A stretch of DNA of 64,000 nt from an uncultured Desulfobacterium sp. (GTDB lineage Bacteria; Desulfobacterota; DSM-4660; Desulfatiglandales; Desulfatiglandaceae), in contig LT984857.1 in assembly GCA_900258555.1 (NCBI GenBank), positions 509,795 through 573,794 of the forward strand, written 5' to 3'. The position numbers were made by a program, and so were the translations under genes. The notes beneath the pieces are model-generated. The model made no database searches. It was not told the DNA's origin and saw only the letters and a program-made list of their open reading frames with translations. Of this stretch, positions 42,027 to 50,239 are shown piece after piece. How positions within the stretch are numbered: position 1 is the first letter of the stretch; each line of letters opens with the position of its first letter.

Positions 42027-42446
42027 TTAAAGCTCTGATGTGCAGTTCGGGCACCGTGTGGCCTTAATTGGAATAGCGGTAAAACACTTCGGGCATTCCT
42101 TTGTCGCTGGTTCGACAACAGGTTCTTCTTCTTTCCTCTTAAGCCGGTTGATTTGTTTGATCACAATAAAGATGGAGAACGCAACAATGATGAAATCCAA
42201 AACAGTGTTGATAAATACCCCATATCTGAGCGTTACTGCCTCGGCCTCAGCGGTTTTCGCCTTGAGCGTAATCGCCAGATTCGAAAAATCAACATTACCC
42301 AGCAAAAGACCGATCGGCGGCATGATCACGTCATTTACAAATGAACTGACAATTTTGCCAAACGCCCCGCCAATAATAATGCCAACAGCCATATCAATTA
42401 CATTACCACGTACGGCAAATTCTTTGAATTCTTTGAACATTCCCAT
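42027..42446 (-). CDS. mscL: large-conductance mechanosensitive channel with C-terminal zinc ribbon
   Basis: The 139-residue protein begins [20 protein letters not shown], with [19 protein letters not shown] as the first pore-lining segment and a second membrane segment (about 75-97). These are the MscL hallmarks. The C-terminus adds CPKC and CPNC motifs after the usual cytoplasmic helix, a zinc-ribbon-like tail instead of a plain charged end. The channel opens on osmotic downshock to release solutes. AGGAGGAT precedes the ATG. Upstream the 640-base gap 42447-43089 holds hairpins described separately. Confidence 0.93.
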
Positions 42447-42849: not shown

Positions 42850-43027
42850 GGCCTTTTGGCCTGCAATGAATTACTTAAAGGCCTGAGAGCGGAACCAGGT
42901 GCGACATCTTAAAATGCGTCAGCTAAAGGCCGTTAGCCGGTAGGTAACGTTTTTTTACATCCAACTTCCCTCTTGAAATCAAATCCTTTCTGCATTAGAT
43001 TGAGTACCAATTAAAATCTGAACTCTG
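42850..43027 (+). promoter_or_regulatory. hairpin-rich leader upstream of the DUF2760/Hsp70 operon
   Basis: The stretch contains AGGCC-TTTT-GGCCT (42850-42863) and a CGTTA...TAACG stem followed by seven T residues (42931-42956). It is followed by a full terminator hairpin at 43028-43053, 37 bases before the GTG of the DUF2760 gene. Together this resembles a regulated leader or a small RNA with its own terminator. I compared it by eye with c-di-GMP-I and glycine riboswitch cores and do not see them. The exact promoter is unknown. Confidence 0.4.
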
Positions 43028-43053
43028 CCTCCAAAGTTGGAGGTTTTGTTTTT
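43028..43053 (+). terminator. terminator or attenuator hairpin before the chaperone operon
   Basis: CCTCCA and TGGAGG pair around AAGT and are followed by TTTTGTTTTT. Its position just 37 bases before the start codon, in the same direction, makes an attenuator plausible; otherwise it ends an upstream short transcript. Confidence 0.7.
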
Positions 43054-43089
43054 AAAGGGATATGGTTGAACCCCCTAGGAGACAAGATA

Positions 43090-43824
43090 GTGGAAAAAAA
43101 GATCTCTAATCAACTCTTATTATGGACGGTTGTGTGGTTTGCTGTCCTAGGTATAATAATAGCCTTTCTGGGTCACATGGAGATGGCCCATCATCAGGGT
43201 ATAATTGCAAAATACTTTGCCTCATCATCAGAGCAGCCTGGAAGCGCGAGCAACAAAGAATATATTTACTGGGTAACGCTGACCGTTCTCCTGGCTGTCA
43301 TAGGGCTGTTACAGTTTTTGACCATGGCCCGGACGCTCAAGAGGACAATTGCTGAGGCTGCGGTAAAGGCCCGGCCCGGTAAAAAGCAAAGGCCCGCCGC
43401 TGTTCAGCCGACCGGGCAGGACAAAATGATAAGCGCTATGGAGGAACAGGCCAGGTCTCTCCACCTGTTGAGTCTCCTGCAGCGCGAAGGCCGGCTGGTG
43501 GATTTTCTCCAGGAGGATCTCAGGCCCTATGATGACTCACAGATAGGTGCAGCAGTAAGGAGCATACAGGAAAGTTGCCAGAAGGCCCTTAACGAATTTA
43601 TTACCCTCAATGCAGTGATGGAGCAGGAAGAGGGCGAAGAGGTGACTATACCGCCCGGGTTTGATGTAAACGCGGTCAGGCTTACCGGAAATGTTACGGG
43701 CTCTCCCCCTTTTAAAGGCATATTGCAGCACCGCGGATGGCGGGTTTCCAAATTCTCCATGCCGTCTCTGTCCGCCAAACAAGACCCTAATATCATTGCC
43801 CCCGCCGAGGTGGAAATAGGCTGA
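43090..43824 (+). CDS. DUF2760 membrane protein of an Hsp70 operon
   Basis: The protein of about 245 residues has two membrane segments near its N-terminus (about 9-33 and 57-80), a basic linker, and the C-terminal DUF2760 domain (about 120-244) with LLQREGRLVDFLQEDL, YDDSQIGAAVR and LQHRGWRV. The start is taken as GTG 43090, with AGGAG nine bases upstream; a TTG at 43066 would place the ribosome site inside the gene. It leads an operon with two Hsp70-like genes. The function is unknown; it could attach the chaperones to the inner membrane. Family name recalled from characteristic motifs. Confidence 0.82.
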   Translation: MEKKISNQLLLWTVVWFAVLGIIIAFLGHMEMAHHQGIIAKYFASSSEQPGSASNKEYIYWVTLTVLLAVIGLLQFLTMARTLKRTIAEAAVKARPGKKQRPAAVQPTGQDKMISAMEEQARSLHLLSLLQREGRLVDFLQEDLRPYDDSQIGAAVRSIQESCQKALNEFITLNAVMEQEEGEEVTIPPGFDVNAVRLTGNVTGSPPFKGILQHRGWRVSKFSMPSLSAKQDPNIIAPAEVEIG

Positions 43825-43836
43825 AGGTGTTTTTAG

Positions 43837-45651
43837 ATGTCGGAGCCAAGATATATCATAGGTATTGACCTGGGAACGACCAACAGTGTAGTCGCATTTA
43901 CTGAGGCTGTCAGCGATGAAGAAAAAGGGCAGGAGATACGGATATTCATGATCCCCCAACTGGTCGGGCCAGGCTCTGTTGCGGAGCGTGAGACCCTGCC
44001 TTCGAGCGTCCTGCTGCCCGGCCCCCACGATGTTCCCGATGGCGGGCTTGTTGTGCCCTGGAACAGGGATCAGACACTGGCGGTCGGCGAATTCGCCCGA
44101 GACCGCGGGGCCGAAATACCGCACCGCCTGATCTCTTCCAGCAAGTCATGGCTCTGTCACACCGGTGTTGACAGGAAAAGCCCCATACTGCCCTGGGAAG
44201 GGGAGAAGGACGGAAAAAGGCTTTCCCCTGTGGAGGCATCCGCCGCCATCTTGAGGCACATAAAAGAGTCGTGGAACCATGCAATGGCCCGCGAACACGA
44301 AGATTTCCTCCTGGAAAGACAGGATATCGTCCTGACCGTGCCCGCATCCTTTGATGTAGTGGCGAGAAACCTTACGGTAGAAGCGGCAAATATGGCCGGG
44401 CTTTCTGATATTACCCTGCTTGAGGAGCCACAGGCCGCCTTTTATGCATGGATAGAAGGCTCACAGGGTAAGTGGCGCAAGAAGATATCTGTGGGGGATG
44501 TGGTCCTGGTGGTGGATGTGGGAGGCGGCACAAGCGACTTCAGCCTCATCAGGGTCATGGAAGATAAGGGGGATTTAAGCCTTGAGCGGATTGCGGTGGG
44601 CGAGCACGTCCTTGTGGGCGGGGACAATATGGACCTGACACTTGCCTATACCATTGCAAGGAGGATGGCCTCAAAGGGTCAGAAGCTAAGCGCCTATCAG
44701 ATGCGGGGACTTTGCCACGGCTGCCGGGCGGCAAAGGAGCAACTGTTTGCAAATTCTGAAATGGTTTCCTATCCCATTGCGATTTTGGGCAGAGGCAGCA
44801 GCCTGATCGGGGGTGCAATAAAGACAGAGCTGACACACCAGGAGGTGGAAGAGGTCCTGACCAACGGGTTTTTTCCCAAATGCAATCTCGACTCCCAGCC
44901 ACAGGCGGAGCGCAGATCCGGCATGCGTGAACTGGGCCTGGTTTACAGCTCAGATCCGTCGATCACAAGGCACCTGGCAAGATTCCTCTATCAGCAGAAG
45001 GTTGCTGATAATAGCCGCACCTTCCCGACCGCCGTGATCTTTAACGGTGGCGTGATGAAGGCAAGGGGGCTCAGAAAAAGGGTCCTGGATGTCCTGTCCT
45101 TGTGGATGGACAACCAAGATCAAAACAGCCCCAGGGAGATAGAAGGCCAAAGTCTTGATCTTGCCGTGGCAAGGGGTGCAGCCTATTACGGCCTTGCCCG
45201 CAGGGGTAAGGGGATACGCATCAGGGGAGGTCTTTCCAGGACATACTACATCGGCATTGAGGCGGCGCTGCCTGCGGTACCAGGCATGCCCGCGCCTGTT
45301 AAGGCCCTGTGTGTGGCCCCTTTCGGGATGGAGGAAGGCACGGAGGCTACCTTGCCGGAAAAGGAATTCGGGCTGGTGGTAGGGGAGCCGGTCAAGTTTG
45401 ATTTCCTGGGCTCACATATAAGGAGACACGACACCATAGGCGCTGTTATCGAAGACTGGGAAGGAGAGATAGAGGAGGTGACCACGCTTGAGACCAACAT
45501 CGAAGGTGAGGCCGGGGCCGTAATCCCTGTAACTCTTCGCATCAACGCCACTGAGGTGGGCGCACTTGAAATCTGGTGCGATTCCACCACAGACGACAGG
45601 AAATTCAAACTGGAATTCAATGTCCGGGAGAGAAACCTTGGAAGCCCCTGA
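43837..45651 (+). CDS. Hsp70-family protein A
   Basis: The 604-residue protein has the Hsp70 ATPase signatures GIDLGTTNSVVAF (phosphate 1), VVDVGGGTSDFSLI (phosphate 2) and VIFNGGVMKARGLR (adenosine). It contains insertions absent from DnaK, for example the KSWLCHTGVDRKSPILPW region near residue 105. After the ATPase domain only a short beta-rich part follows and there is no helical lid like that of DnaK. It lies 12 bases after the DUF2760 gene and overlaps the next Hsp70 gene by about 30 bases. No dnaJ or grpE is nearby. It is a divergent chaperone-like ATPase of unknown client. Confidence 0.88.
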   Translation: MSEPRYIIGIDLGTTNSVVAFTEAVSDEEKGQEIRIFMIPQLVGPGSVAERETLPSSVLLPGPHDVPDGGLVVPWNRDQTLAVGEFARDRGAEIPHRLISSSKSWLCHTGVDRKSPILPWEGEKDGKRLSPVEASAAILRHIKESWNHAMAREHEDFLLERQDIVLTVPASFDVVARNLTVEAANMAGLSDITLLEEPQAAFYAWIEGSQGKWRKKISVGDVVLVVDVGGGTSDFSLIRVMEDKGDLSLERIAVGEHVLVGGDNMDLTLAYTIARRMASKGQKLSAYQMRGLCHGCRAAKEQLFANSEMVSYPIAILGRGSSLIGGAIKTELTHQEVEEVLTNGFFPKCNLDSQPQAERRSGMRELGLVYSSDPSITRHLARFLYQQKVADNSRTFPTAVIFNGGVMKARGLRKRVLDVLSLWMDNQDQNSPREIEGQSLDLAVARGAAYYGLARRGKGIRIRGGLSRTYYIGIEAALPAVPGMPAPVKALCVAPFGMEEGTEATLPEKEFGLVVGEPVKFDFLGSHIRRHDTIGAVIEDWEGEIEEVTTLETNIEGEAGAVIPVTLRINATEVGALEIWCDSTTDDRKFKLEFNVRERNLGSP

Positions 45652-48415
45652 AAAATGTTACATTATTGGGATTGACCTTGGCACCACCAATTCCGCTGTC
45701 TCCTATGTTGACCTCTCAACCACCAGAAAACAAATCAAGCTGTTCCGTGTCCCTCAGTTGTCAGGGCCAGGGGAGATATCAGAACTCCGGATCCTGCCGT
45801 CTTTTTTCTACATCCCAGGCGAGCATGAGATAGACAGGTCATCTGTCACCGTAAGCTGGTCTTCGGAAAAAAAGGGCTTTACAGGCGCATTCGCACGGGA
45901 TCAGGGATCGAAGGTCCCTGACAGGCTGGTGTCATCGGCAAAGAGCTGGCTGTGTCATGCAAAGGTGGATCGCAGGGCCGCCATCCTGCCCTGGTCTGCG
46001 GCGGAGGATGTAAGCCGCATCTCTCCTGTAGAGGCGACAGCAGCCTATCTGACCTTTATCAAAGATGCCTGGAACCACACCAGGAAAGACGATGAGGATC
46101 AGTATGCCGAAAGGCAGCATATAATCATCACTGTGCCGGCATCATTTGACGAGGCGGCAAGGGATCTGACGGTTGAGGCGGCGGGGTTAGCAGGGATAAA
46201 AAATATCACCCTGCTTGAAGAGCCCCTGGCCGCCTTTTACAGTTGGCTGATCAGGAATGACAAAGAGTGGAGCCGGCATATCCGGCCCGGGCAATTGATC
46301 CTGGTCTGTGATGTAGGCGGAGGCACTACGGACTTTACCCTGATCACCCTGCGGGACAAGGAGGGAAGCCCTGTGTTTGATCGCATAGCCGTGGGCGATC
46401 ACCTGATTTTGGGCGGAGACAACATGGACCTTGCCCTTGCCCGGCATGTTGAGACGAGACTGAAGGAGGGGGGCAAAAGCGGGGCGATAAACATACGGCG
46501 CTGGCAGGCCCTGTGCAGCCAGTGCAGGCAGGCCAAGGAGGAGATCCTAAGCGGTGTGGCGGAATCAAGGCCGATTACCCTCGTGGGGGAAGGTAGGAAG
46601 CTTATTTCAGGCACAATGTCAGCCACGCTTTCAAGAAAAGAGATAGAAGATATCATCCTTGATGGATTTTTTCCCCTTGTCGCCAGGGATGAGGACCTGA
46701 GCGAAAAAAAGAGGCTTGGTATTACCGAGTTCGGTCTCCCTTATGCCCAGGACCCTGCAATTACCAGGCACATGGTCCGGTTTCTTGAGCGACACAGGCA
46801 GGATGTCAAACAGATATTAAACATAGACAATGTTCAGCCGGACCTGATCCTGTTTAACGGCGCAGCACTTAAGCCATTGGTTATTCAGGAAAAGATCCGG
46901 GCAGCTATACGCCACTGGTTCAATGAAGTGGATGAGGCCCTTCCCCGGGTAATGGTAAACCCGGAGCCCGACCTGGCGGTTGCCCTGGGTGCATCCTATT
47001 ATGGACTGGTAAAACAGGGCCTTGGCATACGTGTGGGGAGCGGGAGTGCCAGGGCATACTTTCTGGGGGTGGGGCATACAAAAGATCCATCGGCGTCTCA
47101 GCCGGAAAAGGCCATATGTCTGGTGGAAAGAGGCACTGAGGAGGGAAAAAATATCGAGCTCGCAGGCCGCGAGTTTCATGTACTCGCCAATCAGCCGGTC
47201 AGCTTCAGTTTATTCAGCTCCAGCTTCAGGCCCCTGGACCGGGTTGGAGATCTGATTGACATTGATGATACGCTTACCCCCCTGCCACAGATCCAGACCG
47301 TGATCCAGTATGGAAAAAAGGCCAGGGAGACCAAGCTTCCTGTAAAAATCGAGGCAAACTATACAGAGATCGGAACCCTGGCCCTTTGGTGCTGCTCCAC
47401 AATCAGCGATCACCGCTGGAGGTTGCAGTTCCAATTGCGGGAAATCGAAAGATCTCAGGCGGTATCTGATCAGCAGGTCCTGGAGCAATCGCTGGTGGAT
47501 AAGGCGCTTTATGAGATTAACCAGGCCTTCTCCGCAAATGCGGACAGCGGTCTTGAGCAGTTGATAAGGAAGGTATCTGAGGTTGTTGGTCTTCAAAAGG
47601 AAATGTGGCCCCTCAATTTTATCCGGCCTGTGGCAGATCAACTGATCAGGTTGATGGATGCAAGGAAGATCAGCAGCGAACACGAAGGACGGTGGTATAA
47701 TCTCACAGGGTTTTGTCTGAGGCCGGGTGTTGGAGATGCTGGGGATGAGAATAGGCTTAAGGTCCTATGGAGGATCTTTGACCAGGGGCCGATCCACAAC
47801 AAAAATCCGCAGGTCCGTTCCGAATGGTGGGTCTTGTGGCGCAGGGTCGCGGCAGGTCTCTCCGCAAAACAACAGCGTTACATGTCCCAGAAGATTTCAA
47901 CCTTACTCAGGCCGAAAAAGGGCGGGGAAAAGATCCAAATAGCCCCCCAGGAGCATATGGAGATCTGGATGGCCGTTGCCAATCTGGAGCTGATTTCCGC
48001 CGAAGACAGGGCCAACTGGGGAAAATTCCTCCTGGATCAGTTAAGCCCCAAAAAAAGCAGGCCCCAATACTGGTGGGCCATATCAAGGCTTGGCGCCAGG
48101 GAACCCCTCTATGGGCCGATAGACAGGGTAATCCCCGCCGCAGAGGCCGGCTCTTGGATAAAGTCAATCCAGGGAAAAAACTGGCGGAATCCAAGACCTG
48201 TGGGTTCTGCATTATCGCAGATTGCAAGACTTACAGGAGACAGAAAGCGGGATCTCGACCCTGATGTCCTCAAACAGGCAATAGAATGGCTTAGCCAATA
48301 TGACTGGTCAGGGGCATGCATGCGGATCTTACAGGAGGTCGTACCAGTAGCCGGACAGGAAGAAAGTGCACTGTTTGGTGAATCTGTCCCCCCTGGAATC
48401 GTGCTGCATGTATAG
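45620..48415 (+). CDS. Hsp70-family protein B with long C-terminal extension (DUF3731-like)
   Basis: The product of about 931 residues has GIDLGTTNSAVSYV, VCDVGGGTTDFTLI and the same KSWLCHAKVDRRAAILPW insertion as its neighbour, so the two are paralogues. After the ATPase and beta domain (to about 620) comes a helical extension of about 300 residues with WPLNFIRPVADQLIRLM and PQYWWAISRLGAREPLYGP, which fits DUF3731, a domain described attached to Hsp70. The start is uncertain: ATG 45620 lies inside the upstream gene, and a TTG at 45638 has a GGGAGAG before it. Translation is coupled to Hsp70 A. The two may work as a pair. Confidence 0.85.
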   Translation: MSGRETLEAPEKCYIIGIDLGTTNSAVSYVDLSTTRKQIKLFRVPQLSGPGEISELRILPSFFYIPGEHEIDRSSVTVSWSSEKKGFTGAFARDQGSKVPDRLVSSAKSWLCHAKVDRRAAILPWSAAEDVSRISPVEATAAYLTFIKDAWNHTRKDDEDQYAERQHIIITVPASFDEAARDLTVEAAGLAGIKNITLLEEPLAAFYSWLIRNDKEWSRHIRPGQLILVCDVGGGTTDFTLITLRDKEGSPVFDRIAVGDHLILGGDNMDLALARHVETRLKEGGKSGAINIRRWQALCSQCRQAKEEILSGVAESRPITLVGEGRKLISGTMSATLSRKEIEDIILDGFFPLVARDEDLSEKKRLGITEFGLPYAQDPAITRHMVRFLERHRQDVKQILNIDNVQPDLILFNGAALKPLVIQEKIRAAIRHWFNEVDEALPRVMVNPEPDLAVALGASYYGLVKQGLGIRVGSGSARAYFLGVGHTKDPSASQPEKAICLVERGTEEGKNIELAGREFHVLANQPVSFSLFSSSFRPLDRVGDLIDIDDTLTPLPQIQTVIQYGKKARETKLPVKIEANYTEIGTLALWCCSTISDHRWRLQFQLREIERSQAVSDQQVLEQSLVDKALYEINQAFSANADSGLEQLIRKVSEVVGLQKEMWPLNFIRPVADQLIRLMDARKISSEHEGRWYNLTGFCLRPGVGDAGDENRLKVLWRIFDQGPIHNKNPQVRSEWWVLWRRVAAGLSAKQQRYMSQKISTLLRPKKGGEKIQIAPQEHMEIWMAVANLELISAEDRANWGKFLLDQLSPKKSRPQYWWAISRLGAREPLYGPIDRVIPAAEAGSWIKSIQGKNWRNPRPVGSALSQIARLTGDRKRDLDPDVLKQAIEWLSQYDWSGACMRILQEVVPVAGQEESALFGESVPPGIVLHV

Positions 48416-48733: not shown

Positions 48734-50239
48734 GTGGGCGAAGATCTGATCTATAATGAATTGAGACAAAGGATCAAGACATTAGAAAAAGAAGTCTCTG
48801 AGCTTAATCATAGCAAAAAGTTGCTCCAAGAAAGCGAAACAACCTACCGGATGCTGCTGGATAATTCCAGTGTTCCCATTACTTATTTCAATCTTGCGGG
48901 CAATACCCTCTTTCTGAATAGGGTCTGCGCCGCCAACTTGGGAGGAGTTCCTCATGATTTTATCGGGAGGTCAATATATGAGATCCTTCCCGTTTCTGCT
49001 GAAATAATCAGAAAAAGGATATCCAAGGTTGTTGAAACTGGAACAGGCAGTGAATATGAAGATTTCGTAAAACTCGCTTCCGGCGATTACTGGTTTATTT
49101 CAGATTTTCTGCCGGTTAGGAATGAAAATGGTGACATATTTGCAATCCAGGTAGTTTCCCGAGATATCACAGAGAGCAAAAAGATTGAAAAACAGGCAAC
49201 AATTTTCCAGAAATTTGTCGAGGCCTCGGAACAGGGACTTGGCATGGCGGATTTGAATGGTGATCTTACTTATGCCAATCCCACCCTCTGCAGCTGGTTC
49301 GGGGAAGCAACACCTGCAGATGCCATTGGGAAGAACGTTATAAACTATTATACTAAAGAGGACCGGCAAAAGTTGGAAAATGAATGTATACCCACGGTCA
49401 TTAGAGAAGGGCACTGGGTTGGGGAACTGGATATTGTCTCCATTCAAGGAAAGGTAACCCAAACCATTCATAGCGTGTTTCTGATCCGTGATAAGGCAGG
49501 AAAACCGATTTGCCTGGCTAATGTACTTACAGATATCACGGGACATAAACGTCTTGAAAAGGTTCTTATGCATAGGGAAAAACTGAAAACTCTGGGTGTA
49601 ATAGCTGCCGAGGTCGCCCACGAGATCAGAAACCCCCTTGTCTCCATAGGCGGTTTTGCCCAACGCCTTAAACAAAAGTTTCCGGATTCACAAGAATGCG
49701 ATATCATCCTAAAAGAATCCCAACGGCTTGAAAAAATATTGTCTAGGATAAAGAATTATCTTGAACCCATTGATTTCCACTCTCAGGAATGTTCTGTAAA
49801 TACGATTATTACCGAATGCTTGAATCTGCTTTCTCCGGAGACGGAACAGAGACAGGTGCAGTGTATACTGGAGTTGACCCCAAATCTTCCCGCTGCCTAT
49901 GCAGACCCGGAAATCATGGTTCAAATAGTAATCAATCTAATTCTGAGTGCATTCGAGACAATGGACAAAGGAGGGACTCTGGACATCAAGACATTCGCGG
50001 TTGACAAGGAAATCTGCATCGAGTTCAGAAACCAGGCACCGGATTTGATAGTAAAAAATCCTGAGGTCCTTTTTATGCCTTTTGCAGAAGGAGGCCGGAG
50101 TATAGGTCTGCCTCTTTGTTACCGGTGGATCAAAGATATGGGTGGTCTTTTGTCTTTCACACAAGGGGAAAATTTTATTGTCTTTAAGGTTGCCTTACCT
50201 GAGGCCCCTTCAGTAGAACTTAAGGGACAGGCATCTTAG
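48734..50239 (+). CDS. PAS-domain sensor histidine kinase with degenerate ATPase domain
   Basis: The 501-residue soluble protein has an N-terminal coiled coil (about 5-35), two PAS domains (about 36-150 and 155-275), an intact H box VAHEIRNPLVS (His296) and a C-terminal HATPase-like domain. The ATP site looks impaired: the N box reads INLILSAFE with Ser in place of the magnesium-binding Asn, and the G1 motif DxGxG is replaced by RNQAPDL. The G2 loop reads GRSIGLPLC. It may therefore be phosphorylated by another kinase or act as a sensor without activity. No response regulator is encoded nearby. The start is GTG 48734. Confidence 0.82.
   Translation: MGEDLIYNELRQRIKTLEKEVSELNHSKKLLQESETTYRMLLDNSSVPITYFNLAGNTLFLNRVCAANLGGVPHDFIGRSIYEILPVSAEIIRKRISKVVETGTGSEYEDFVKLASGDYWFISDFLPVRNENGDIFAIQVVSRDITESKKIEKQATIFQKFVEASEQGLGMADLNGDLTYANPTLCSWFGEATPADAIGKNVINYYTKEDRQKLENECIPTVIREGHWVGELDIVSIQGKVTQTIHSVFLIRDKAGKPICLANVLTDITGHKRLEKVLMHREKLKTLGVIAAEVAHEIRNPLVSIGGFAQRLKQKFPDSQECDIILKESQRLEKILSRIKNYLEPIDFHSQECSVNTIITECLNLLSPETEQRQVQCILELTPNLPAAYADPEIMVQIVINLILSAFETMDKGGTLDIKTFAVDKEICIEFRNQAPDLIVKNPEVLFMPFAEGGRSIGLPLCYRWIKDMGGLLSFTQGENFIVFKVALPEAPSVELKGQAS

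Follow-up and report, generated by a model that had tools for sequence, protein, structure and literature searches.

A widespread bacterial operon of a DUF2760 protein and two Hsp70-like ATPases predicted to work without a J-protein

The window, which is the whole 64,000-nt stretch of DNA analysed, contained three genes on the same strand (43090-48415, +) that formed a tight operon according to their open reading frames and Pfam assignments. The first gene (D) encodes a DUF2760 protein, and the second (S) and third (L) encode Hsp70-like ATPases. The features of the locus were as follows, with SBD-beta for the beta-sandwich substrate-binding domain, NBD for the nucleotide-binding domain, and TM for transmembrane.

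43027..43054 (+): terminator-like hairpin and T run, directly upstream of the operon start and downstream of a weak sigma70-like site (42973-43001)
43090..43824 (+): D, DUF2760 protein, 244 aa; GTG start with AGGAGA 7 nt upstream; Pfam PF10816, E 8.9e-52
43114..43170 (+): TM helix 1 of D (LLLWTVVWFAVLGIIIAFL), hydropathy 2.71 over 19 residues
43273..43329 (+): TM helix 2 of D (VTLTVLLAVIGLLQFLTMA), hydropathy 2.22
43447..43815 (+): DUF2760 domain of D (Pfam residues 120-242), two main helices and then a beta domain ending ...HRGW...IAPAEVEI; AF2 mostly pLDDT >90
43837..45651 (+): S, Hsp70-like ATPase, 604 aa, NBD and SBD-beta without lid; PF00012 70 bits; S clade support 100
44143..44160 (+): KSWLCH in S, catalytic-lysine segment (DnaK K70) by alignment
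45638..48415 (+): L, Hsp70-like ATPase with DUF3731, 925 aa; TTG start; PF00012 74 bits; PF12531 275 bits, E 1e-81
45941..45958 (+): KSWLCH in L, catalytic-lysine segment by alignment
47030..47440 (+): SBD-beta-like domain of L (approximate bounds), from AF2 and alignment to DnaK/BiP up to residue ~601
47672..48406 (+): DUF3731 of L, an all-helical C-terminal array replacing the Hsp70 lid and ending FGESxPxGI; PF12531 residues 679-923, AF2 helices 617-913

The gap between D and S was 12 nt and the start of L overlapped the stop of S by 14 nt, which fits a translationally coupled operon. An alternative TTG start of D at 43066 would give a protein of 252 aa. An earlier note made from the sequence alone had placed a membrane DUF2760 protein and two Hsp70-family proteins in one operon with tightly coupled translation, and the Pfam assignments, two hydrophobic N-terminal helices in D, and the gene spacing bore this out. 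The gene upstream of the operon hairpin ran divergently, and the hairpin with its T run was predicted as a possible leader or attenuator. The count of terminator-like sites was not above that of shuffled sequences, and the operon leader folded slightly better than its shuffles (z -1.7). No sigma-32-type heat-shock promoter (CTTGAA-N-CCCCAT) was found anywhere in the window, and a riboswitch search upstream of the operon returned two sub-threshold chance matches only. By eye, an MscL-like channel protein with a zinc-ribbon-like C-terminal tail (CPKC...CPNC) was encoded divergently from the operon at 42027-42446 (-), and a PAS-type sensor histidine kinase lay downstream at 48734-50239 (+). A broad sensor/response-regulator cluster was also seen near 19 related loci, for which the general abundance of such genes is the probable cause.

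In the usual description, a J-protein and an exchange factor drive the Hsp70 cycle. We found that S and L were both above the PF00012 cut-off and thus possess the Hsp70 NBD, and that D8, T11, K70, E171, D194, T199, and D201 (DnaK numbering) were kept wherever aligned in all S and L proteins. The KSWLCH motif, previously taken for an unusual insertion, aligned instead to the DnaK K70 segment VKRLIGR, with its lysine being the catalytic lysine in every S and L aligned. Their NBD did contain an extra stretch, 27-30 residues upstream of KSWLCH. The AF2 model of L (mean pLDDT 84) superposed on DnaK over residues 6-604 (Z 37) and on the NBD and SBD-beta of DnaK/BiP with Z 33-37. Its best Foldseek matches were ATP-bound DnaK, and its fold matches were filled by Hsp70s. 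For S, sequence alignment pointed to the SBD-beta. The SBD-alpha lid was absent, in that S ended after SBD-beta and L carried DUF3731 at the lid position, in agreement with the short C-terminus of one Hsp70 and the helical DUF3731-like extension of the other described before. Against the main NCBIfam DnaK and HscA models, S and L reached ~70-96 bits versus cut-offs >600, and were thus below equivalog level. HscA, HscC, and YegD of E. coli are likewise side-branch Hsp70s, with dedicated roles, but S and L matched these families in the NBD only and far under their cut-offs (HscA 92-96 bits versus 708). HscA and HscC are independent of GrpE (PMC4753570).

The residues that serve J-proteins in DnaK were a different matter. 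Compared to DnaK, N170E, Y145S, and N147D were present in 111 of 111 S/L proteins, T173 was changed to Q or L, R167 was mostly changed to T, V, or I, and in all 111 small or charged residues (I-R-G-G or V-G-S-G) stood in place of the hydrophobic linker VLLLD. In the literature, DnaJ binding or stimulation has been assigned to most of these replaced DnaK positions (PMC4022485). As read from the alignments, S and L have lost the J-protein docking site and the hydrophobic linker, and the module would therefore work without a J-protein, a J-less function that we infer from these residues. Consistently, no J-domain or GrpE gene was detected in or beside the operon or within ~6 kb of 75 related loci by a J-domain motif of moderate sensitivity (21 of 48 control dnaK loci found) and a GrpE HMM, and a J-protein gene lay ~1.3 kb outside the window on its right side, some 17 kb off. 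The absence of a J-protein and GrpE from the operon had been pointed out before; it holds for GrpE by family models, yet D itself may play the part of GrpE, judging from a weak similarity in predicted fold. Elsewhere, the same genome encoded a GrpE of its own as well as two DnaK and six J-domain matches, and canonical GrpE was present in 26 of 26 carrier genomes checked. The module comes in addition to DnaK/DnaJ/GrpE and does not replace it. In several carriers, another locus of the genome encoded an additional, divergent member of the GrpE family at 52-64 bits (L232-L235; G425:C39, G333:C21, G371:C1:1479138, and G161:C1:1365596).

The lost or replaced lid and the linker altered in all members could also mean that S and L are not chaperones but Hsp70-fold ATPase switches that serve the assembly or regulation of one particular membrane complex, and the patchy spread of the genes (13% and 7% of genomes) suits such a dedicated task. 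However, the SBD-beta fold was retained in the L model and superposed on DnaK/BiP, and no fixed neighbour gene was found as a possible target. We therefore regard such switches as improbable. Among the neighbourhoods compared, no conserved neighbour gene suggested a client across phyla.

D and L were nearly always found together. DUF3731 (PF12531) and DUF2760 (PF10816) were each present in 53 of 395 genomes of the Desulfobacterota (Thermodesulfobacteriota in the naming of NCBI); 50 genomes contained D and L together and 6 contained one alone (Fisher p 6e-56, in a test that counts genomes as independent although they are related). The carriers spanned ~23 families by our own table count of the 395-genome set. 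In three of the 6 one-only genomes (G352, G390, and G275) the expected partner was off a contig end, and two were only 62-67% complete. Similarly, in 279 genomes of a second phylum (that of a Caballeronia genome, presumably Pseudomonadota), 20 contained DUF3731, 21 DUF2760, 20 both, and 1 one only. Moreover, all 13 genomes chosen by Hsp70 match alone carried exactly one DUF2760, and these included Kuenenia, Lentisphaerae, Riflebacteria, Spartobacteria, Terriglobia, Cloacimonadota, and Vibrio. In the single-contig genomes G161, G204, and G269, D and L were 250-560 kb apart, and hitch-hiking within an operon is therefore no explanation for the pairing in these three. The D-S-L order was kept in several phyla, and the operon is conserved across many phyla, far beyond chance. 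Joint conservation of DUF2760 and the Hsp70 genes, proposed earlier as a check on their association, was thus strongly borne out.

S, on the other hand, was optional. D and L without S were found in 8 genomes of five families (G331, G134, G155, G204, G248, G364, G269, and G228), and at an Acidobacteriota locus (L131) L directly followed D. Since S is dispensable, D and L constitute the core and S is accessory, which leaves the S/L heterodimer suggested in the earlier note unsupported as the core of the machine. In the tree, all 54 S sequences formed one clade (support 100) apart from L, and the sole break in the L clade was that the DnaK outgroup attached to an L sequence on a long branch, a placement flagged as doubtful by the tree program. 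The separation of the S clade from L indicates that the two are old paralogues and not the product of a recent duplication. L resembles Hsp110/Grp170 (Sse1) in being an Hsp70-like protein with an extended helical C-terminus that is paired with another Hsp70, and Sse1 was among its fold matches. It differs in that its possible partner S is dispensable and its helical part is DUF3731; the absence of S from 8 genomes with D and L speaks against exchange for S as the main role of L.

In the AF2 model of D, two main helices led into a beta domain of seven strands, and the DUF2760 domain was mostly at pLDDT >90. While the DUF2760 domain was conserved up to its C-terminal APAEVE tail, the N-terminus differed: by a simple hydropathy rule, with some start codons uncertain, 31 of 60 D rows had two TM helices, 14 had one, and 15 had none, two of the latter being fragments of one broken Cupriavidus locus. 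In the TM-less D of Betaproteobacteria, Acidobacteria, and some Verrucomicrobia, the N-terminal segment was amphipathic by eye. The earlier idea of a membrane-linked Hsp70-type machine therefore stands as to its Hsp70 nature, its joint conservation, the two TM helices here, and the one or two in most D, whereas the membrane anchor is not universal, since 15 of 60 D rows were without a TM-strength segment.

When the D model was compared to the PDB by Foldseek, GrpE took ranks 1-3, but weakly (E 0.06-0.07). A second aligner placed human mitochondrial, Geobacillus, and E. coli GrpE on residues 135-244 of D with Z 4.3-4.9 at 6 A rmsd, below a trustworthy level, and the long TM helices of D may attract the long-helix GrpE in a fold search. 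In GrpE, a helical stalk is joined to a beta-domain, and the latter enters the cleft of the NBD (PMC4753570). As in GrpE (PF01025), helices come first in D and a beta domain makes up the C-terminus, with the motifs G-aromatic and A-x-V-x-[IV] close to the end. D differs in having TM anchors where GrpE has a long free stalk, in a loop ~10 residues longer before the last strand, and in showing no significant sequence similarity: Pfam GrpE gave no match at E 10 to any of 24 D members, and profile-profile comparison by hhalign was not significant (P 0.12-0.17), its score being equalled by 17 of 150 column shuffles. The best profile alignment, itself not significant, was collinear with the structural alignment (FD, G-aromatic, PA-x-V). 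An apparent homology of D to GrpE by HMM scoring (p 5e-15) was rejected, because a reversed-profile control gave nearly equal enrichment; the enrichment is thus compositional and was dropped as evidence. D therefore bears a weak resemblance to GrpE in predicted shape, without proof of kinship, and we do not class it as a GrpE.

Two roles of D were weighed on this evidence. D might be only an anchor or adaptor at the membrane with a fold of its own and no exchange activity, with exchange occurring spontaneously or through S or DUF3731, which would then resemble Hsp110 or armadillo-type factors. The one or two TM helices in most D and the lack of a significant sequence link to GrpE agree with this, as do the HEAT-repeat proteins that follow S in some split operons, given that armadillo-type exchange factors exist in eukaryotes (PMC4753570). 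However, the DUF2760 domain was conserved while the anchor changed or vanished, which argues that the domain is more than a tether; GrpE headed an unbiased fold search, albeit with weak E values (0.06-0.07); and S is dispensable, which speaks against exchange by S. We consider a mere anchor rather unlikely. That D works like GrpE is the single best mechanism, and we hold it at just short of even odds.

Our preferred reading, to which we assign a probability of about 0.5, is a J-independent Hsp70 module with D and L as its core and D as a tethered, GrpE-like exchange cofactor. The module would be a self-contained Hsp70-type chaperone, additional to DnaK/DnaJ/GrpE and in no need of a J-protein. 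L would bind and hydrolyse ATP and hold clients by its SBD-beta, with DUF3731 in place of the normal lid, and S would be an optional second ATPase without lid. The C-terminal domain of D, whose predicted shape recalls the end of the stalk and the beta-wing in GrpE, would engage the NBD and promote nucleotide exchange, and its N-terminus would usually tie the machine to the inner membrane. ATPase and chaperone activity, binding of D to L (and S), exchange by D, and membrane clients are what we infer here. Such a module would share with DnaK/DnaJ/GrpE the Hsp70 ATPase fold, every catalytic residue tested, the NBD and SBD-beta, and possibly a GrpE-like partner in D. It would differ in the absence of a J-protein near the operon, the replaced J-docking residues and hydrophobic linker, the lid that is absent (S) or exchanged for DUF3731 (L), and a partner that is usually membrane-tethered.

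The operon is apparently a widespread bacterial chaperone operon undescribed in the open-access literature searched, where no mention of DUF2760 or DUF3731 was found; in the parts of two bacterial Hsp70 surveys consulted, the class was not identified. This Hsp70 class was present in ~7-13% of the species sampled in two phyla and also occurs in several others. It keeps the ATPase residues without the J-docking surface, and is co-inherited with one partner, D. GrpE is described in reviews as the only known type of Hsp70 exchange factor in bacteria (PMC4753570). An exchange or activator role of D would make it a new co-chaperone, located at the membrane in most cases. More specifically, DUF2760 may be a second, membrane-tethered bacterial exchange factor that serves wholly J-independent Hsp70s and is either convergent with GrpE or far diverged from it, and we put this forward tentatively as somewhat less than an even bet. 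If true, bacteria would have two types of exchange factor and a J-independent Hsp70 cycle, two DUFs (DUF2760 and DUF3731) would gain a testable role, and the module would serve as a natural experiment on the parts of the Hsp70 cycle that can be done without.

Some copies of the genes were found on mobile elements or beside defence genes. A complete D-S-L operon (L191, 9381-14790) was carried by pCC829_3, a conjugative plasmid from Bradyrhizobium barranii, where trbI and a topoisomerase gene flanked it, and D-S was next to defence-annotated genes on a Thiodictyon plasmid. These copies, together with a weak PADLOC match of the Hsp70 part to the candidate PDC-M61B, would suit a mobile accessory or defence module instead of housekeeping chaperones. 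The genes were nevertheless single-copy per genome, co-inherited in most genomes, and surrounded by ordinary neighbours, and the PADLOC match spanned the generic ATPase core only, so we hold a mobile or defence role to be very improbable. In phages, only generic DnaK/HscA matches were found. A Cupriavidus sp. UYMMa02A copy (L137, 5404-10895) had all three genes broken up into several frames, owing either to decay or to a poor assembly.

Where the operon was split, other genes accompanied S and L. With L not adjacent, a HEAT-repeat protein of ~290 aa followed or overlapped the 3' end of S (L083, L107, L109, and L125), with HEAT_2 matches of E 1e-14 to 1e-20 in L083, L107, and L109, the three of these four loci run against Pfam. 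DUF3731 had no profile similarity to the HEAT proteins beside S (P 0.62). Armadillo-type helical repeats are one eukaryotic exchange-factor scaffold (PMC4753570), and a helical partner of S is thus suggestive, but no more. Where L was unlinked from D and S (L082, L106, and L108), a DUF3592 protein of ~155 aa followed or overlapped L, as assigned by Pfam at L082 and L108.
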